64,000 nucleotides of DNA from Clostridia bacterium (GTDB taxonomy: Bacteria; Bacillota; Clostridia; UBA1212; UBA1255). The notes below the pieces were generated by a model, which searched no databases, was not told the origin of the DNA, and worked only from the letters and a program-made list of their open reading frames with translations. Where the stretch lies: positions 1 through 64,000 of the forward strand of contig JAFZSK010000011.1 in NCBI GenBank assembly GCA_017620915.1. Reading direction: 5' to 3'. This document shows, piece after piece, positions 4,547 to 14,771 of this stretch (position 1 is its first letter; each line of letters begins with the position of its first letter). Made by a program: the position numbers and the translations under genes.

Positions 4547-5584
4547 ATGAGATATCCGGAGTTTTTAAAGCCGGGCGGGACGATCGGATTCATTGCCCCC
4601 TCGTTCGGCTGTGCGACCGAACCGTACATAAGCTGTTTTAACGCGGCGCAGGAGCGGTTCCGGCGGGAGGGGTACGGTATTGTCCTCGGTCCCAACTGCT
4701 ACGCTTCCGACGGCTCGGGCAAAAGCAGCACTCCGCAGAACTGCGGCGCAGAGGTCAATAAACTGTTCACCTCCCCCGGAGCGGACGTACTGATCTCCTG
4801 CGGCGGCGGCGAGACGATGTGCGAGGACCTGCCTTTCATCGATTTTGACGCGCTCACGAAAGCCGCGCCGAAATGGTTCATGGGCTACTCGGACAACACC
4901 AACCTCACCTTCACACTTCCCGTCCTGTGCGATACAGCGGCAATATACGGCCCCAACGCCCCCGCCTTCGGCATGGCGCAACTGCATGAATCGCTCGAGG
5001 ATGCCTGGGCGCTGCTGCACGGCGAAAAACGCGAATTTCACAGCTACCCGCGCTGGGAGCGCGAGAGCCTCAAAACGCCGGAAGACCCGTTCGTACCCTA
5101 CGATCTCACCGAACTGACCCGGCTGCGCACCGTATCCGCTTCGGGAAGCGCGGATTACCCGGTGGAATTTTCCGGCCGGCTGATCGGCGGCTGTCTGGAC
5201 AGTCTGATCAACCTGGCCGGCACGCCCTACGGCAAAGCGCCGGAGTTCGCGGAAAGATATGCTTCCGACGGCATCATATGGTTCCTGGAATCGTGCGAAC
5301 TCACTACGATGGGCATCCGGCGCGCGCTGTGGCAGCTCGCTCAGGCGGGCTGGTTCCGCCACGTGCGCGGCTTCATTTTCGGAAGGCCCTTCATGATCGA
5401 CGACCGGTTCGGAGATGAGGGACCGGCGGACGCGGTACTCGCCGCATTGTCCGGGTTTGGCGTACCTATCGTACTCGACGCGGATATCGGCCACCTGCCG
5501 CCGGCAATGCCCATGGTCTCCGGCGCCCTTGCCCGGGTCCGGGCGGCGACCGGCATGCTTTCCATCGAATATTTTTTTGAGTGA
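4547..5584 (+). CDS. S66 family LD-carboxypeptidase / MccF-like peptidase
   Basis: Serine peptidase of family S66, 345 aa, close to family length. These enzymes remove the terminal D-Ala from L,D-tetrapeptides in cell-wall recycling, or (MccF type) cleave microcin C-like compounds. Seen: N-terminal GTIGFIAPS, ISCGGGE, the nucleophile motif FMGYSDNT (Ser near 117), a Glu in LESCE (near 240) and a His in DIGHLPPAMP (near 313), which complete the Ser-Glu-His set. There is no signal peptide, so it acts in the cytoplasm. GGAGGG precedes the ATG. Confidence 0.93.
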   Translation: MRYPEFLKPGGTIGFIAPSFGCATEPYISCFNAAQERFRREGYGIVLGPNCYASDGSGKSSTPQNCGAEVNKLFTSPGADVLISCGGGETMCEDLPFIDFDALTKAAPKWFMGYSDNTNLTFTLPVLCDTAAIYGPNAPAFGMAQLHESLEDAWALLHGEKREFHSYPRWERESLKTPEDPFVPYDLTELTRLRTVSASGSADYPVEFSGRLIGGCLDSLINLAGTPYGKAPEFAERYASDGIIWFLESCELTTMGIRRALWQLAQAGWFRHVRGFIFGRPFMIDDRFGDEGPADAVLAALSGFGVPIVLDADIGHLPPAMPMVSGALARVRAATGMLSIEYFFE

Positions 5585-5643: not shown

Positions 5644-8595
5644 ATGGCTGACAAAACGACGCCCGGAGCGGCGGATAAAGAGCAGACGAACACCGCGAGA
5701 CCTAAAAGCAGAAATGCCGGCAGGCGGATCGCGGATATCGACTGGAAGCTTTCCGAAGACTTCAGTGTGATACCCGCGCAGACCATGCGGGGCGTGAAGC
5801 TGTGTTCAGAAGCACTGGAGATAAAAGACGAACTGGACGAAGACGGAGATATCGTGATCACGTTCAACCGCCAGATGTGCGATTCGGATGAGTATCCGGC
5901 CAACGTGCACCACGACGACAATATATTCACCCAGCAGCCCGCCCGCAACCGCATCTGGATCAATCCCGAAAAGCCTTATTCGTTTTTCCTGCCCTGCACC
6001 ACGGTACTGCAGGGTACGGACGAGTCGGTGCGCCCCAGCTGGAACTGCAAGATCTGCAACCGGGGCATGCCGTGCCGGCCTGCGCTGGCCGCGTACTACA
6101 AGTACCTCATGCAGTACCACCCCGACGAATTCCGCCGGCAGCGGGAGGAGTATTTCAAGAACAAGGACGCCGTTGACGGCACGCTGAACCGCAAGCGGCC
6201 GCTGCCCGATCTGGTGTACGGCGCGGATGAATTGCCCGTGATGCCGTTTTCACGGATAAAAGATATCCGGGACGAAATTGACAACTACTCCTACGACGTG
6301 GGGTATTCGGGAGAGGCGGAGTTTCCGTTGTCCCTGACCTGCTTCGGCAGCGGCAGCAGATCTTCCGCCGGCCGCACGGACAACTGGCGCGCGCAGTCCC
6401 TCAACGCCTTCGTGGAAAACAGCCTGAACAACTCCGTGGCGCAGAAATACTCCACCGCGGACGCCGAAAAGATGCGCTACCTGCTGATTCTGAAACTGCT
6501 GGAGAACCCGGCCGAGTACGCGGCGTACGTGGAACGGGTCAAAAATACCGAGACCGGCGCGCCGGACATTCAGGGCGGCAGTTACTACGGATTCGTAGCG
6601 GGCAACGACCGCCAGGAAGTCGCGCGCAGAGTAAAACAGATCGCCGAAGCCATCCAGCTCAAATTCGCGATCCCCAACACATACAGTCAGTTTTCAGCCA
6701 TGGACCTGATGCAGAGCCTGGCCAAAGTGACCGATTACCCCCGCTACAATCCGATGGTGTACGAGAGCCTGCGCGACGATACAATCTACCTGATAACGGG
6801 CCTTTCGGAATTCACCAAAGCGTACCGCTCCGCCCCGAACGATTACGGAGATCCCGCGCGGCGCCAGGTGGAACATTTCCTGTACGAGATCTCCGAATTC
6901 AAGCTGCACCGCTTCATCCTTTTGGCGGGCACCGAGGACGCCGTGAACGACTTCCTGTCCCTCTCACCTTCGCTGCAGATCTTCTTCAACAACAACCGCG
7001 TTATCATCCAGGACAAAAACATCGACGAGATATTTGACATGTTCATCGAGCTGGTGCGCGACAAATTGCCCGAGCCGGTGCCGGAGGATGCCCGCGAGCA
7101 GTTTAAAGAATACTTCACGTTCAACATCAGCGCGTTCCCGTTCAAGAACCGGTCGCTGGCGGAGTACATTGCCAACTACATGATCCAGCAGAAAGCGTTC
7201 GCGTTCCCGCAGGACCTTTCGGGCGTAAAGCGCAAGAACTTCATGGAGGAACTGGATCAGCTGATCGGTCTGGAGAAGATCAAGGCCGCGGTCAAGCAGT
7301 TCTACGACTTCGCGCGCTACCGCCAGGCGGCACTGGACAACGGCATCAAGGTCAAAGCGGGCAATATGCATATGGTATTCACGGGCAATCCGGGCACCGG
7401 CAAAACGACCGTTGCCCGCCTTATCGCCCGCGCGCTGTACGATATCGGCATTCTCAAAGAAAACAAGCTGATCGAGTGCGAAAAGAAGGACCTGGTGGGC
7501 GAATACCTGGGCCAGACGGCGCCCAAGACTTACGCAATGATCGAAAAGGCGCTGGGCGGCGTGCTGTTTATCGACGAGGCGTATTCGCTGGCCACGGGCG
7601 ACCACGGCGGCAATTCATACAGCGAAGAAGCCGTGGCCACACTGGTCAAGGCCATGGAGGACAAAAAAGACAACCTGGTCATCATCTTTGCCGGCTACAA
7701 GGCCGAGATGGCGCGTTTCATCAATTCCAATCCGGGCATTGCCTCCCGCGTGGGCTACACCTTCCACTTCGAGGACTACACCGAGGACGAACTGGTGGAC
7801 ATGTTCTTCCTGAAGATGACCAAGAGCAAGCTGCGGGTTGACGAAGCCTGCCGCCCGAAGATCAAGCAGATCCTGCAGTATTTCCACAACGTGGAAAACC
7901 TGGGCAACGGCCGCTTCGTGGACAAACTCTACCAGCTCACGCTGCAGAAACGCTCCGCGCTGAACGACCCGGATCTGGCCCGGATCGACGAGCGCAGCAT
8001 CCCCGCCATCGAAGAGATCGTCGAATTCCTGCCTAACAACGAACTGATGATCCTGCCCGATGCCATTAGAGAGTCCGAAGGCCGCCGGGTCGCGCTGCAT
8101 GAATCCGGCCATGCGTTCATAGGGCGGCTCCTCAACGCGGGCGACGAGATCGTGCGCATCACCGTGGAAACCTCTGCGGGCGGTGTGCTGGGCTACGTGC
8201 AGAACAAGCCGCAGCCGCAATATCTGCGCACGCGCGAAGACTACGAAGATTCGATCTGCGTGCTGCTGGGCGGTCTGGCCGCCGAGGAAGTGTTCCTCGG
8301 GGAGTATTCCGACGGCGGTTCCTCCGATCTGCGGTCCGCGATCGATCTGGCCCGCCGCATGGTAGAGGACAACGGCATGTCCAGTCTCGGTTTTGCCGCT
8401 CTCTATTTGAAGGACAAGCCCGATGCTTCCGCTAATGTGATCTACACCGAAGTTGACAATATCATCCGCAGCCAGTTCGACCGGGCGCGGACGATCTTAA
8501 ACGAACACCGCGACGCGATCACCAGGCTGGCGGATCAGCTGTTTGAGAAGCGTACCGTTGACCGCGCCGAGATCGACAAACTGTTCGAGTCCTGA
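5644..8595 (+). CDS. Soluble AAA+ (CbbX/SpoVK-type) - M41 zinc protease fusion
   Basis: Predicted ATP-dependent protease, 983 aa. An N-terminal region of about 530 aa has no known family and includes a Cys cluster C135-x2-C138-x5-C144. Then comes a CbbX/SpoVK-type AAA+ module: GNPGTGKTT (581-589), VLFIDEAYS (640-648), and an NPGIASR sensor/arginine-finger region. The C-terminal part (about 800-983) is an FtsH-like M41 peptidase with HESGH (819-823) and the third zinc ligand probably Asp895 in SSDLRSAIDLARRMV. FtsH carries its peptidase on a different AAA clade and has N-terminal membrane helices; none are seen here, so this enzyme should be cytosolic. AAAGGAAG precedes the ATG. It follows the carboxypeptidase gene by 59 nt. 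Confidence 0.93.
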   Translation: MADKTTPGAADKEQTNTARPKSRNAGRRIADIDWKLSEDFSVIPAQTMRGVKLCSEALEIKDELDEDGDIVITFNRQMCDSDEYPANVHHDDNIFTQQPARNRIWINPEKPYSFFLPCTTVLQGTDESVRPSWNCKICNRGMPCRPALAAYYKYLMQYHPDEFRRQREEYFKNKDAVDGTLNRKRPLPDLVYGADELPVMPFSRIKDIRDEIDNYSYDVGYSGEAEFPLSLTCFGSGSRSSAGRTDNWRAQSLNAFVENSLNNSVAQKYSTADAEKMRYLLILKLLENPAEYAAYVERVKNTETGAPDIQGGSYYGFVAGNDRQEVARRVKQIAEAIQLKFAIPNTYSQFSAMDLMQSLAKVTDYPRYNPMVYESLRDDTIYLITGLSEFTKAYRSAPNDYGDPARRQVEHFLYEISEFKLHRFILLAGTEDAVNDFLSLSPSLQIFFNNNRVIIQDKNIDEIFDMFIELVRDKLPEPVPEDAREQFKEYFTFNISAFPFKNRSLAEYIANYMIQQKAFAFPQDLSGVKRKNFMEELDQLIGLEKIKAAVKQFYDFARYRQAALDNGIKVKAGNMHMVFTGNPGTGKTTVARLIARALYDIGILKENKLIECEKKDLVGEYLGQTAPKTYAMIEKALGGVLFIDEAYSLATGDHGGNSYSEEAVATLVKAMEDKKDNLVIIFAGYKAEMARFINSNPGIASRVGYTFHFEDYTEDELVDMFFLKMTKSKLRVDEACRPKIKQILQYFHNVENLGNGRFVDKLYQLTLQKRSALNDPDLARIDERSIPAIEEIVEFLPNNELMILPDAIRESEGRRVALHESGHAFIGRLLNAGDEIVRITVETSAGGVLGYVQNKPQPQYLRTREDYEDSICVLLGGLAAEEVFLGEYSDGGSSDLRSAIDLARRMVEDNGMSSLGFAALYLKDKPDASANVIYTEVDNIIRSQFDRARTILNEHRDAITRLADQLFEKRTVDRAEIDKLFES

Positions 8596-8639: not shown

Positions 8640-10880
8640 TTACTGCCGTGCGTGCCTCTCCCAGGCGCGCACGCGCTGTTTCATGCCCTCCACATCCAGT
8701 ACGCCCAGCGCAAACCCTTTACGCACCAGTTCGGGCGGCACGAATTCATCGTATTTCTCAAACACCGGTACTTCTTTCGGGTACACCAGTTCCAGCGGAT
8801 CCCACTCCTGCGCCGCCTCGTCGCAAACGACCCGGTAAAACTCCGCTTCATCCGCCTGCATCGTAAACTGCATATAATACGGCCGCCCGGAAGTCAGCCC
8901 CTTCAAACCCAGCCGCTTGCCGCAGCGCTGCTTCAAAAACCGCTCCAGCGCCAGAAACGCATAGCTGCCCAGCCACGGGAACAGTGCCCACATTTTACCG
9001 CCGAGATGGATCAGCGGCTTCTCCGCCATGCCGGACTTCCCGAACAGATCCCGCGCCTCCGCCAGCCGGCAGGCTGCGTGGCGCATCAGGTACGGATATT
9101 GACGGTCTTCCTGCAGCACTCCGAACATTCGCTCCAGAATGCGCGTATGGATATCGCCGGCAACATCGCCGAAGTATGCGGGAATATTGCCCCGGACCAG
9201 CGTACAGTACACCTCACGCCGCTTGTGGTCAACTTCCTCCACCACCCAGACGCGGCCGGCAATGGCGATCTTGTCCCCTACCGGCGGCGGCTTGACGATC
9301 GTGCCGAGCTGCTCGGAACCGGAATGGACGGTGTATTCGACGTTGTCCTGGAACACCGCGTAGAAACGGTGGTCGCTCACCACGCGCTCACCCGCGAGTC
9401 CTACAATCAGGCCGCCGTTCTCCGTGCGCTGGATGTGATCAATCTCGATCAGGTGCCGCAGCAACAGCCGGTAATCTTCCTGCGTTATGCGTTTGAAACA
9501 GTTCAGTGTGAGCACCCGCGACGCCAGTTCCCCTGCCGTCATTTCACCGCAGGATGCCAGCGTGCTCATCGTCTGATGGTACAGCAGACTGTACGGGAGC
9601 CGGTCCGTGCGCGGCGGTTCCACGAACCGTTCTTCTATGTACAGCTGTACCAGCGCGATGCCCTGTATTAGATACCAGGGCACCGTGGCCGGCAGCAACG
9701 CCCGCGCCTCCTGATGCTCCTCCCGCATCACAAACCACATTTCCGACGGATCGCCGCGCCGGCCGGTGCGCCCCATGCGCTGCAGAAAACCGGAAACCGT
9801 AAACGGCGCATCGATCTGAAATGCGCGCTCCAGCCGCCCAATATCTATGCCCAGTTCCAGCGTAGCGGTGGCGCATACGCTCATGAGCGACTCGTCATCC
9901 TTCATCTCGTCTTCGGCGCTTTCCCGGTATGAGGCGGAAAGATTGCCGTGGTGGATCAGGAAGCGGTCGGGCTCGTGATTGACCTCGCAATACTGGCGGA
10001 GGCTCTGACACACGGACTCGCACTCTTCGCGGGAATTGGTGAATATCAGACACTTTTTGCCCTTCGTATGTTCAAAAATGTACCCGATGCCCGGATCCGC
10101 GGCGGGCGGCGCGCTGTCGGTGGCGGCTTCTTGCGGGAGTATCCCGCCGATATCCCCCTTGTCCTCGTCCGCCTGCGGCGCCGTATTATAAAAGTGCTCC
10201 ATGCCGAGGCGCCAGATCTCTTTACCGCCGTCGAAGCGCGGGATCACCGTGCCTCTCCCGCTGCCCGCGGCCAGGAATCTGCCGGCGGCTTCCGGGTCGC
10301 CGATGGTGGCGGACAATCCGATCCGTCTCGGCCTGCACCCCGCCAGCCGGCAGAGCCGTTCGATCAGGCAGAACGTCTGTAGTCCCCGGTCCGCGCGCAG
10401 CAGCGAGTGGATCTCGTCTATCACCACGAACCGCAGATCGCCGAACAGCGCCGGGATCTCCATATGCTTGTTGATCAGCAGCGATTCCAGCGACTCCGGC
10501 GTGATCTGCAGTATGCCGGTTGGCTTTTTAAGCAGTTTGCGTTTCTGAGACAGCGCCGCGTCGCCGTGCCAGCGCGTTACCGCGATGCCCTCCTCCGCGC
10601 ACAGTTCGCCCAGCCGTCCGAACTGGTCGTTGATCAGCGCTTTAAGCGGGGCAATGTACAGCACCCCCACGGTCTCGGACGGCTGCTCGTTCAGCAGCGT
10701 CAATATCGGAAAAAACGCGGCCTCGGTCTTGCCGGACGCGGTGGAGGCGGTCAACAGCACGTTGTCCTCCGTGCCGAATATCGCGTCTCCCGCGGCGTTC
10801 TGCACGGCCCGGAGGCTTTGCCACCCTGACCGGTAGATATAGTCCTGAATAAACGGCGCATAGCGTTCAAACACATTCAT
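8640..10880 (-). CDS. Lhr-like DEAD/DEAH-box superfamily 2 helicase
   Basis: SF2 nucleic-acid helicase of 746 aa, last gene of the lexA operon. All motifs are present: Walker A TASTASGKT (44-52), IAPLKALINDQ (76-86), DEIH (155-158), SAT (190-192), CLIFTNSREECE (277-288), ATATLELGIDIG (337-348) and QRMGRTGRRGD (367-377). Residues after 400 form the long extension seen in Lhr-like helicases and helicases encoded beside BrxD/DUF2791 ATPases. The start codon overlaps the stop of the ATPase gene (ATGA), so translation is probably coupled. It ends tail-to-tail with the AAA-protease gene, 44 bp apart. Role in damage response or phage defence is inferred from context. Confidence 0.94.
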   Translation of the reverse strand: MNVFERYAPFIQDYIYRSGWQSLRAVQNAAGDAIFGTEDNVLLTASTASGKTEAAFFPILTLLNEQPSETVGVLYIAPLKALINDQFGRLGELCAEEGIAVTRWHGDAALSQKRKLLKKPTGILQITPESLESLLINKHMEIPALFGDLRFVVIDEIHSLLRADRGLQTFCLIERLCRLAGCRPRRIGLSATIGDPEAAGRFLAAGSGRGTVIPRFDGGKEIWRLGMEHFYNTAPQADEDKGDIGGILPQEAATDSAPPAADPGIGYIFEHTKGKKCLIFTNSREECESVCQSLRQYCEVNHEPDRFLIHHGNLSASYRESAEDEMKDDESLMSVCATATLELGIDIGRLERAFQIDAPFTVSGFLQRMGRTGRRGDPSEMWFVMREEHQEARALLPATVPWYLIQGIALVQLYIEERFVEPPRTDRLPYSLLYHQTMSTLASCGEMTAGELASRVLTLNCFKRITQEDYRLLLRHLIEIDHIQRTENGGLIVGLAGERVVSDHRFYAVFQDNVEYTVHSGSEQLGTIVKPPPVGDKIAIAGRVWVVEEVDHKRREVYCTLVRGNIPAYFGDVAGDIHTRILERMFGVLQEDRQYPYLMRHAACRLAEARDLFGKSGMAEKPLIHLGGKMWALFPWLGSYAFLALERFLKQRCGKRLGLKGLTSGRPYYMQFTMQADEAEFYRVVCDEAAQEWDPLELVYPKEVPVFEKYDEFVPPELVRKGFALGVLDVEGMKQRVRAWERHARQ

Positions 10881-12205
10881 ATCGTAAACTCCGCGTATCC
10901 TGCCTCTGCCTCGTCAGAAACGGCCTCAGACTTCGCGTACGAAAACTCATCCGATTCCAGCAGGACGGTTATGTTCATGTTTGGATTCTGGTACAGCAGA
11001 TCCAGCAGTTCGATAAAGTCCCGTATTACTTCCCGCGGCGTGATGTTCTGATCCGCGCCGATGCGGCTGTACTCGATCCGGATGAAGCCGGTCAGTTCGT
11101 CCGTATTCACCGTGCGCGCATATCCGTACAGTCCCGCGTGCATGTCCGCCAGTTTCTCGCAGAGCACCAGCATCTCCTCCGCGGTGAGCGGCTCCAGCCG
11201 GATCACCGGCGCCAGCAGATCCCGCGCGCCGGGCTTAGAAAATCTGCCTTCCGCCAAGCGCGAGCGCAGCGCCTCGTAGCTGTATATGCCGCGGCGTTTG
11301 TCCTCGAGGGCCTGGGGCGTTGACCCCATGATGATGCCCAGGTAGCGCGCCTTGCCCTGCAGCGTGTCGTTGTACATCGTGAGCAGTTTTTCGTAATTGT
11401 ATTGACGCGTGACCGCGTTGGGGATCTTGTAGATGTTGACCAGCTCGTCCACCATGATCATGAGCCCCGCGTAGCCGGCTCCGCGGAAAAACGCGGCAAA
11501 CAGCTTCAGGTAGTCGTACCAGTCATCGTCGGATATGATAATGTTCACGCCCAGCGCCTCTTTCGCCTCGCTTTTGAGCGCGTATTCGCCGCGGAACCAG
11601 CGCACGACCCGAGCTTTCAGCTCGTCATCGCCGTTCACGTACGCCCGGTAATACATCGAAAGCAGCCGCGCGAATTCAAAGCCGTGCACCAGTTCACTGA
11701 CGGAGGCAGTCACCGCGTAGATCTTTTTATCTGTAGCCGCCGCAAGTCCGGGGTCGTCCGGGGACAATCCCGTCTCCTGCGCCGCCTCGCTCTGTACCAT
11801 ACTTATCCACCGGTCCAGCACCAGCGTCAACGCGCCGCCTTCGGGCTTCGTTTTAGTAGACAGATTGCCGATCAGCTCGCGGTACGTGGCGAGGCCCTGC
11901 CCTTTTGTCCCCTGCAGCCGCCGCTCCGGAGACAGGTCCGCGTCCGCCACGATGAATCCGCGGTCCATCACGTAATTCCGGATCGTCTGGAGCAGAAAGC
12001 TTTTGCCGCTGCCGTACCGTCCGACGATGAACCGGAACGACGCGCCGCCTTCCGCGATGATGTCAACGTCGTGCAGCAGCGCCTCTATCTCGTTCTTCCG
12101 CCCCACGGCGATATACGGCAGGCCGATGCGCGGCACCACGCCGCCCTTTAGTGAATTCAGTACCGTCTGCGCGATCCGCTTCGGCACTTTTTTATTCTCA
12201 TCCAT
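10877..12205 (-). CDS. BrxD-like (DUF2791) P-loop ATPase
   Basis: ATP-binding protein of 442 aa resembling the DUF2791/BrxD family, known from BREX phage-defence loci and from loci with TerB-N proteins. Seen: VGRYGSGKSF Walker A (61-70), the family signature DADLSPERRLQGTKGQGLA (88-106) and a Walker B LMIMVDELVN (248-257). A conserved GSTPQALEDKRRGIYSYEAL segment lies at 294-313. Its 3' end overlaps the helicase start by 4 bp and its start lies 4 nt after the TerB gene stop. Probably loads or regulates the helicase on DNA. Such proteins are often misnamed biotin carboxylase. Confidence 0.9.
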   Translation of the reverse strand: MDENKKVPKRIAQTVLNSLKGGVVPRIGLPYIAVGRKNEIEALLHDVDIIAEGGASFRFIVGRYGSGKSFLLQTIRNYVMDRGFIVADADLSPERRLQGTKGQGLATYRELIGNLSTKTKPEGGALTLVLDRWISMVQSEAAQETGLSPDDPGLAAATDKKIYAVTASVSELVHGFEFARLLSMYYRAYVNGDDELKARVVRWFRGEYALKSEAKEALGVNIIISDDDWYDYLKLFAAFFRGAGYAGLMIMVDELVNIYKIPNAVTRQYNYEKLLTMYNDTLQGKARYLGIIMGSTPQALEDKRRGIYSYEALRSRLAEGRFSKPGARDLLAPVIRLEPLTAEEMLVLCEKLADMHAGLYGYARTVNTDELTGFIRIEYSRIGADQNITPREVIRDFIELLDLLYQNPNMNITVLLESDEFSYAKSEAVSDEAEAGYAEFTI

Positions 12206-12209
12206 GTAT

Positions 12210-14144
12210 TTACCCTCCCGTTAAACGTTCAATATCTTCTCTGTAGTCTTCCACCAGCGACAGACGGTCGTCGTCGCAGATGATGACGTTGTCCCCGATC
12301 TCGTCCGCCAGCGCCTCATTCACGGCATCCGCCACCATCGACGGCATCAGCCGCTGCGCTTTAATATAATCACTTACATCCGTCCCGTCCAGCAGCAGCC
12401 GTAAAATGCGGAACTGCGTCTCATCCAGCGCAAGTCCGGCAGGGACAGCAACTCCACCGGCGGATACCTGCGTCAACTTGCCCGCTACGTCTGTCTCCGG
12501 TACCGCCTGCACCGTTTCCGGTGCGGTCAATTCCCGTTTTTCCTCCTCCGTAAGCAGCCGGTCCAGCGTCACATCCGCATCCGCGCGGATCTTTTCCAGT
12601 CCCGCGGGGTCGATCCGGATATTTTGCCGCGCGGCTTCGCGCATTGCCCGCTTGTCCGCTCCGAGCACGGCGTCAATAAACGGCTCCGCCCACGCCTCCT
12701 CCGGCCGGGCTGTGCCGGGATGACCGGCCTTCAGGTATTGCCGCAATTTCACGTCCGCGGCGTGCACGAACCCGCGCAGCCGGCTCAGTTTGAAATTGAC
12801 CTTTTCGTACGCCTCCGCGCGCCAGATGCCGCCCCGGCGCCGGTATATGCGGCACTCGTTCAGCACATAGTCCGTATTTTCATTCCTGTTCCGGTCCAGA
12901 TACACCGCGCTGGAAAGCGGATACCAGACCGCCTTGCGCCGCTCGCCGAAGCACGCGGTAAACAGATCCGTTTCGGAAAGCAGTTCCTTGTCCTCGATCC
13001 GGCAGTGCGCCGCCGCGTACCGCCATATTTCGCTGAACAGATGCGTGCCGCGCTCTTTATCGGCGGCAATGACCGGCGAAGCGGACAATTTCCTGCCGGC
13101 AAATACACACAGCGCGTCAAACACTTCCGTATCTGTGTGCTCATCCGGTTTTCGCATCACCGCCAGCGCCGCGTCGCGCTTCGGCTGTTCCGGATCCGCG
13201 AACGAAACGGTCAATTCCGGATCCAGTCCGTTCACCACCGCAAATTCGTACAGCCAGCGGTCAATATACCGGCGCATGTATTCGTTTCCGAACCCGGCAT
13301 CCAGATATCCGGCTTCGAATGCTTTTATCTTCTCTATACTTTCCTCCGGCGACGCCGCGCCGATCCCGTTCAGCAGTTCATATACGTACATATACGCCGC
13401 CGAAGCCGAGATATCGGTGTATTCCCCTTTCCGGACACGCGTACGCCACGCAAAATACCCGCGCAGCTGCCGGGTGTTCATATCGTGATACGTCGGATAA
13501 TAACAGAAAAACAATCCGCCGTCCCACGGCGCGTCATCTTCGTAGTCCTCCATAAACCGGCCCTGGCGGCAGAAATTCTGCGCCCGCATTTCCGGGCTCT
13601 CGCTGCCGTATTCGTACAGGCGGCGCATTTCCCGGATGCGTTCCGGTGCCGGATCTTTGGCGGCTGCCGGGACCCCGGCGCGACGCGGAAGTAAGGTGTC
13701 GGTGTATTGACCGGCCGGAACAGACAGACCGGCGCCCGCCGGATCATTGCCCGCCGCGTTCAACATTACGGGAACTGGATCCAGCACCAGTGTGCAGCCG
13801 TATTGTCCGTTAGCTGCCACCGCCCGATCAAACAGCGTATACACCACGTCCGGTTCGGTGCGCTCATCTAACGTGATCCCGACCCACTTTTTTCCGTACA
13901 TCCGGAACGGCGGCGACAGATACGGCCGCGAAAGTTCCGCGAGCGCGCCCTCACCGCACCTCAGATCGCAGCGATCCAGTTCTTCCCCGGTCGCCGGATC
14001 CCACTCCCGCATCAGATACGCGAGCATGACCCCGGTATCCGGATCGTTAAGCGTATAGAATAACCCGGGGTCGCTGTTCCACTTCTCCTGAAGTGCCATA
14101 TTATATTTATCCCGGGCATACGCCGCCAGTTCTTCCGGCCGCAC
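12210..14144 (-). CDS. TerB-N / TerB-C domain protein
   Basis: Large cytoplasmic protein (644 aa) with TerB-associated domains. Residues about 170-380 are a TerB-N domain (PTYHDMNTRQLRGYFAWRTR at 217-236, then YMYVYELLNGIG). Residues about 500-644 match TerB-C (AGLEKIRADADVTLDRLLTEEEK ending in a DDDRLSLVEDY strand-helix). Residues 1-160 are unassigned; the piece FRMYGKKWVGITLDE faintly recalls MmcQ/YjbR proteins. The central metal-binding TerB domain itself is not obvious. TerB-N/TerB-C proteins are predicted scaffolds of DNA-processing complexes, not tellurite resistance factors. It starts 33 nt after lexA and is followed 4 nt later by the BrxD-like ATPase gene. Confidence 0.88.
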   Translation of the reverse strand: MRPEELAAYARDKYNMALQEKWNSDPGLFYTLNDPDTGVMLAYLMREWDPATGEELDRCDLRCGEGALAELSRPYLSPPFRMYGKKWVGITLDERTEPDVVYTLFDRAVAANGQYGCTLVLDPVPVMLNAAGNDPAGAGLSVPAGQYTDTLLPRRAGVPAAAKDPAPERIREMRRLYEYGSESPEMRAQNFCRQGRFMEDYEDDAPWDGGLFFCYYPTYHDMNTRQLRGYFAWRTRVRKGEYTDISASAAYMYVYELLNGIGAASPEESIEKIKAFEAGYLDAGFGNEYMRRYIDRWLYEFAVVNGLDPELTVSFADPEQPKRDAALAVMRKPDEHTDTEVFDALCVFAGRKLSASPVIAADKERGTHLFSEIWRYAAAHCRIEDKELLSETDLFTACFGERRKAVWYPLSSAVYLDRNRNENTDYVLNECRIYRRRGGIWRAEAYEKVNFKLSRLRGFVHAADVKLRQYLKAGHPGTARPEEAWAEPFIDAVLGADKRAMREAARQNIRIDPAGLEKIRADADVTLDRLLTEEEKRELTAPETVQAVPETDVAGKLTQVSAGGVAVPAGLALDETQFRILRLLLDGTDVSDYIKAQRLMPSMVADAVNEALADEIGDNVIICDDDRLSLVEDYREDIERLTGG

Positions 14145-14177: not shown

Positions 14178-14771
14178 TCACAAGTCTTTTAATACTTTTA
14201 CCGCCACGCCCTGTATCTCGCACGCTTCCACATAAATATCACTGAGCCGCGGATTCTCCGGATGCAGCCGTATGCGGTGCCGCGCCGGTTCGGCGTAAAA
14301 ACGTTTGAGCGTAGCTTCGTTTTCGGTGAGGGCGACCACGATCTGACCATCCTCCGCGTAACTCTGCCGCCGGATCAGCACCAGGTCGCCGTCGTCGATG
14401 CCCGCACCGGTCATGGAATCGCCGTTCGCCCGCAGTATGAAATAATCGCCGCTGCCGAACAGCGCCACCGGGAGCCGCACGTACTCATCGATGTTCTCCT
14501 CCGCCAGCTTCGGGACGCCGCAGGCAACCTCCCCCAGCACCGGCACACGCACGGCCCGAGCGTCGGTGCGCATTGACGTTATGCTGCGCACGCCGGAGTA
14601 ATCGATCACCCCGTCCGCGCACAACTGCGTTATATATCTGTACGCCGTTGATTTCCCGACGCCAACGCCGTCCGCCACCTCCTGCATCGCGGGTGAATAG
14701 CCGTGTTTGTCAATATAATTGCACACGAACCGTTCGATCTCCGCCAGGAGGCTCTTGTCCTTGCTCCTCAT
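14178..14771 (-). CDS. lexA: LexA-type SOS repressor
   Basis: LexA repressor, 197 aa. The N-terminus (1-68) is a winged helix-turn-helix (SPAMQEVADGVGVGKSTAYRYITQL). The C-terminal S24 autoprotease has Ser119 in GDSM and Lys156 in ENEATLKRF, the same numbers as in the E. coli protein. The scissile bond is Cys84-Gly85 (EVACGVP) instead of the usual Ala-Gly; UmuD also uses Cys-Gly. AGGAGG lies 8 nt before the ATG. It is the first gene of a four-gene operon with the TerB, ATPase and helicase genes and has a palindrome resembling a Gram-positive LexA box in its own leader, so the operon is probably autoregulated and induced by DNA damage. It may also be the genome's only LexA. Confidence 0.93.
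   Translation of the reverse strand: MRSKDKSLLAEIERFVCNYIDKHGYSPAMQEVADGVGVGKSTAYRYITQLCADGVIDYSGVRSITSMRTDARAVRVPVLGEVACGVPKLAEENIDEYVRLPVALFGSGDYFILRANGDSMTGAGIDDGDLVLIRRQSYAEDGQIVVALTENEATLKRFYAEPARHRIRLHPENPRLSDIYVEACEIQGVAVKVLKDL

Follow-up and report, generated by a model that had tools for sequence, protein, structure and literature searches.

A predicted CbbX/SpoVK-motor M41 protease encoded alongside ordinary FtsH in a rumen Clostridia bacterium

The window, which is the whole stretch of DNA analysed here (64,000 nucleotides; positions 1 to 64,000 of contig JAFZSK010000011.1), comes from a rumen Clostridia bacterium that encodes a predicted CbbX/SpoVK-motor M41 protease alongside ordinary FtsH. 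The gene of this protein is intact, starts with ATG and has a Shine-Dalgarno-like AGGAAG 5′ of the start. It lies between an S66 LD-carboxypeptidase gene and a Shango-like gene trio, with these features:

4547..5584, + strand: S66 LD-carboxypeptidase gene (Pfam), 59 bp upstream of the fusion gene on the same strand
5644..8595, + strand: complete fusion gene, 983 aa (ORF, Pfam, NCBIfam); Cys4 module, pseudo-AAA, CbbX-type AAA+ and M41 metallopeptidase, in that order
5740..6171, + strand: Cys4 module, residues 33-176, with C79, C135, C138 and C144 (family HMM match over 33-176)
6184..6573, + strand: residues 181-310, the least conserved stretch (highest dN/dS, 0.13-0.27)
6574..7233, + strand: degenerate CbbX-type AAA domain, residues 311-530 (hhalign; strand/helix order of the model)
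7234..8013, + strand: active-type CbbX/SpoVK-clade AAA+ domain, residues 531-790 (NCBIfam, PDB match, tree, motifs, fold)
8065..8583, + strand: M41 peptidase domain, residues 808-980 (Pfam, alignment), with HESGH at 819-823 (nt 8098-8112) and the third ligand D895 (nt 8326-8328)
8640..14144, − strand: Shango-like trio (PADLOC), convergent with the fusion gene; SngC 8640-10880, SngB 10877-12205, SngA 12210-14144

The 983-aa protein joins two domains that carry different family assignments. Pfam places an AAA domain at residues 577-688 (E 1e-17) and Peptidase_M41 at 808-980 (E 5e-33). NCBIfam assigns residues 529-767 to SpoVK (4e-75), EccA (7e-59) and CbbX (3e-57), and its FtsH model (FtsH_fam) aligns to residues 808-977 only. 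Sequence relatives in the PDB are CbbX for residues 526-789 and AFG3L2/FtsH for about 807-981. The original prediction, a peptidase with HESGH behind a CbbX-type ATPase, is thus borne out by Pfam, NCBIfam and the AAA tree alike. It had also noted the absence of a membrane helix, and none is found in the 983-aa protein, whose top 19-residue Kyte-Doolittle mean is 1.22. The same fusion recurs in all 7 of the genus genomes and in many MAGs obtained independently from other families, which rules out a chimeric assembly or frameshift artefact. Since the host genome also has ordinary FtsH genes, the protein is an additional one; it may well be listed in databases as a plain AAA family ATPase.

The motor retains a full set of catalytic motifs: Walker A GNPGTGKT at 581 (581-588), Walker B D644-E645, a pore-loop-like EYLG at 620 (Y-L-G 621-623), sensor-1 G684-Y685, N696, the Arg finger R702 and sensor-2 R757. 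According to PMC10659427, members of the SpoVK/CbbX/EccA clade share a sensor-1 GY, an Asn conserved four residues before the first Arg finger and, within sensor 2, a second Arg finger. These signatures are present here, with N696 lying six residues before R702 as against four in that paper, an offset that reflects either different counting or another Asn. Grouping of the AAA part with FtsH, set beforehand as the test of the prediction, was not seen: a tree built from 43 AAA domains puts the family and single CbbX/SpoVK domains on one side and FtsH on the other with an SH-aLRT of 100. Profile comparison with hhalign agrees, giving the motor 1e-87 against CbbX versus 1.5e-12 against FtsH AAA. 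As judged from these sequence comparisons, the AAA ancestry is that of the CbbX/SpoVK clade. The score against the SpoVK equivalog TIGR02881, 252 bits, falls below the curated cut-off of 423 bits, and the protein is therefore classed as SpoVK-like, not as SpoVK.

The AlphaFold model has a mean pLDDT of 62.9, with high confidence for the active AAA domain and low confidence outside it; the N-terminus and parts of M41 fall below 50. Over residues 530-796, CbbX is the best solved fold match (Z 22.9, 262 residues), and FtsH chains align structurally across both motor and peptidase (530-982). For the low-pLDDT N-terminus, a fold search with the whole model is uninformative.

In the peptidase domain, the zinc ligands (HESGH and D895) are conserved in all aligned fused relatives. 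A GMS motif is also conserved across the family and reads GMG in one member, L079. A quick M41 tree sets the family apart from 45 FtsH M41 domains (SH-aLRT 98), and a more careful tree unites 22 fusion proteins with support of 92/93, a grouping that leaves out L165, whose M41 sits on an HSP100-like protein. Both trees make a single origin likely for the M41 part of the fusions. L079 (G347) has a very long branch in the M41 tree and may have a separate origin.

The front of the protein, 530 residues long, was originally described as unknown apart from a cluster of C135, C138 and C144. That cluster exists and is conserved, and C79 completes a set of four. The four cysteines are the only invariant columns of the module in alignment A4; across 43 aligned modules, three of them occur in 43/43 and the first in 38/43, the other five being gapped at that position. 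The alignment could pair C118 in place of C135, and the CxxC spacing in relatives favours C135-C138. Among 147 Clostridia genomes the module is confined to this protein family, and its matches in Pfam and the PDB are at chance level. It is probably a metal site, which may hold zinc, and a site of substrate or partner recognition. Most relatives carry the module twice, and the 983-aa protein carries it once in recognisable form. Residues 181-310 possibly represent a decayed second Cys module, given that relatives have two modules at this place and that the order of secondary structure is similar.

Residues 311-530, by contrast with the Cys module, can no longer be called unknown. They match the family's own AAA domains (hhalign P 6e-7) and a single CbbX (4.6e-6), whereas FtsH AAA, reversed and unrelated profiles used as controls give P 0.23 or worse. 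A separate model of this region has the strand/helix order of an AAA domain, and its best match is CbbX, with a modest Z (6.8) and a Foldseek E of 0.4. The region carries VAGNDRQEVARR in place of Walker A, YLITGLSE for Walker B and LSPSLQIFFNN for the Arg-finger region, so that neither the P-loop nor the acidic pair of Walker B nor the Arg finger survives. The earlier description of the front thus stands for the Cys module, which is without a Pfam or PDB relative, and falls for the degenerate CbbX-type AAA at about 311-530.

The fusion is fixed in some groups of Clostridia and patchy elsewhere. It occurs in all seven genomes of the host genus; five relatives are 70-72% identical, and the closest relative is 88-92% identical with its gene split over two contigs. 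In a second genus of the same order it is found in 6/6 genomes with two active AAA domains, one of the six copies having a premature stop and one lying on a short contig. In another Clostridia order, that of G095, 11 of 143 genomes carry it, and the number of active AAA domains ranges from one to three. A class sample of 391 genomes yielded the fusion in 8 genomes of 4 genera, and a phylum sample of 398 genomes yielded it in the window only. The one-, two- and three-motor forms are conserved, and all of them end in M41. Selection is purifying throughout: dN/dS comes to about 0.05-0.13, whether taken over the entire protein or separately over its pseudo-AAA, AAA and M41 domains. In a search for Spo0A_C domains, made to look for a link to sporulation, the host genome gave only a weak match of 77 bits, and some other hosts gave about 150-160.

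Beyond the host phylum, sampling took in one genome-contig scan together with collections of phages, plasmids and viruses. A viral home for the fusion was rejected, relatives being absent from the viral contigs searched, and so was a plasmid home: 0 plasmid records cover 80% of the motor plus M41 query, and plasmid matches concern mainly the motor part. Two phage records match both the motor and M41 halves at 27-28% identity.

Two related proteins have the multi-domain form without M41. One (L074:4626-7307, 893 aa) has two active CbbX-type AAA domains, and the other (L080:5834-8485, 883 aa) has a pseudo-AAA and one active CbbX-type AAA. Their domain content marks them as chaperone-type siblings of the CbbX-M41 family.

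The protein shares distinct features with each of several known systems. Like FtsH, AFG3L2 and YME1, it has an M41 domain with HExGH plus Asp, its motor lies directly before the peptidase in one chain, and FtsH structures align across residues 530-982. Unlike them, it has a non-FtsH motor, lacks a membrane helix and carries a Cys4 module and a pseudo-AAA in front, and the M41 domains of its family stand apart from FtsH M41 in trees. It resembles SpoVK, CbbX and EccA in AAA sequence, tree position, fold and clade signatures, but its AAA domain is fused to a peptidase in the same ORF (M41 808-980). In the clade survey by Delerue and colleagues, evidence for peptidase fusions or associations was not found (PMC10659427). 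The search of Pfam, NCBIfam, PADLOC, the PDB and the open-licence literature turned up no characterised close family, a finding that the original prediction had named as one that would refute it. A fusion of M41 with a SpoVK/CbbX motor likewise has no description that we found in the open-licence literature, and could be described elsewhere. The protein appears to be a protein-degrading machine, driven by ATP, of a kind not described before.

Type II AAA+ proteins such as Pex1/6 are two-ring machines in which one ring is weak or inactive. The 983-aa protein similarly has a degenerate first AAA followed by an active one, although it belongs to another clade and is fused to a peptidase. A further parallel is an engineered YME1L whose membrane span is replaced by a hexameric coiled coil (PMC5095350). 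Both would be soluble AAA-M41 machines with a substitute assembly element; here, however, a natural pseudo-AAA ring would be the substitute, and the motor comes from a different clade. In YME1L the membrane spans drive the formation of hexamers, and once they are removed assembly fails unless a different hexamer-former is supplied (PMC5095350), which implies that an M41 protease in soluble form requires an element of this kind. By this analogy, the extra AAA ring would be a natural candidate for the role.

We consider it probable that the protein is a soluble, cytosolic ATP-dependent zinc metalloprotease that acts as a six-copy ring on dedicated substrates. Six copies would assemble into a ring machine, and the N-terminal Cys4 module would take hold of certain substrates, or of an adaptor. 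The degenerate AAA would form a non-hydrolysing ring that serves assembly in place of the membrane helices of FtsH; this role is a guess. The active CbbX-type ring would then unfold the bound chain and, by way of the aromatic EYLG pore loop, thread it into the M41 chamber, to be cut at a catalytic zinc held by HESGH and D895. The dedicated clients of CbbX, SpoVK and EccA suggest by analogy that the substrate set may be narrow. With somewhat less assurance, we favour a broader reading, in which a new class of Clostridia cytosolic AAA+ proteases has its M41 domain fed by a stack of CbbX-type rings, between one and three in number, that lies beneath an inactive AAA ring and a Cys4 substrate-recognition module of its own. 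This class would be the first known degradative line within a clade of motors regarded as chaperones only.

The protein might instead be mainly an unfoldase or chaperone, like CbbX or SpoVK, that serves a single client enzyme, such as one of cell-wall synthesis, and uses M41 rarely or to clear failed clients. The characterised clade members are dedicated chaperones (PMC10659427), and CbbX, SpoVK and EccA remodel rather than degrade, which speaks against a protease. Three close siblings (L078, L080 and L074) lack M41, a two-motor member lies downstream of a mraY-ftsW-murG-like run, and a SepF-like gene is found near the fusion in three genus members. Yet no fused member departs from the zinc ligands and dN/dS is as low in M41 as elsewhere in the protein, which argues that peptidase activity is selected, and gene neighbourhoods vary by family. 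We therefore regard a mainly chaperone function as unlikely. Less plausible still is a cytosolic protease for general quality control, one that has a broad range of substrates and duplicates Lon or Clp: the gene stands alone with no conserved partner and its motor and peptidase are intact, but its spread is patchy (two genera have it throughout, and most of the Clostridia sampled lack it) and its elaborate N-terminal module is private, both of which point to specialised clients. Least credible is an anti-phage protease working with the Shango-type SngA-SngB-SngC, whose trio directly adjoins the gene in convergent orientation, also in the closest relative; other genus members have the fusion gene elsewhere and without Shango, 7/7 genus genomes carry the fusion, unlike a mobile defence gene, and PADLOC gives weak AAA matches only, with no covering model.

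The neighbourhoods themselves bear this out. The trio, encoding a helicase (SngC), a BrxC/D-like ATPase (SngB) and a TerB protein (SngA), adjoins the fusion gene in the window and in the closest relative, G028, and in none of the other genus members examined; we judge it to be no part of the fusion system, and a Shango or defence function is largely ruled out because the adjacency is not conserved. A LexA-like regulator gene lies just upstream of the trio (14178-14771), and the same four genes occur in G028. The S66 gene may be co-transcribed with the fusion gene, and as a direct neighbour it is conserved no further than the closest relative. No conserved neighbour of the fusion is common across families. 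The two-motor member mentioned above (L009:5798-10949) lies directly downstream of its mraY-ftsW-murG-like run, as read from the sequence. SpoVK is reported to act on MurG (PMC10659427), which draws attention to this murG-like gene; its position beside the L009 member is local.

Nearly all known M41 peptidases are membrane proteases of the FtsH type, and what is known of CbbX/SpoVK/EccA motors is confined to dedicated chaperones that are reported to lack peptidase links. A soluble fusion indicates that M41 and a CbbX-type motor can be recombined, and offers a naturally soluble M41 machine for structural and mechanistic work. It makes testable whether CbbX-type rings can unfold proteins and feed a protease. 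The series of one-, two- and three-ring forms lets ring stacking be studied as a natural experiment, and the Cys4 module adds a new candidate domain for substrate recognition.

Other M41 carriers were also encountered. A 666-aa protein in G816 (L165:3391-5391, + strand) is a second non-FtsH carrier, combining an HSP100/ClpA-D1-like AAA (AAA_lid_9) with an M41 domain bearing HEAGH (Pfam 1.4e-22); it is encoded directly downstream of an M41-less Cys4/CbbX member. Another M41 architecture, from the same order, is a 1011-aa protein in G013 (L169:65-3100, + strand) with AAA_2 (Clp-type), a second AAA with GPPGTGKT and a diverged M41 (HEAGH). Two 459-aa AAA-M41 proteins with a diverged AAA (L166:1524-2900 in G009 and L167:1314-2690 in G014, both + strand) leave no room for N-terminal membrane helices and are apparently soluble FtsH-like proteases.
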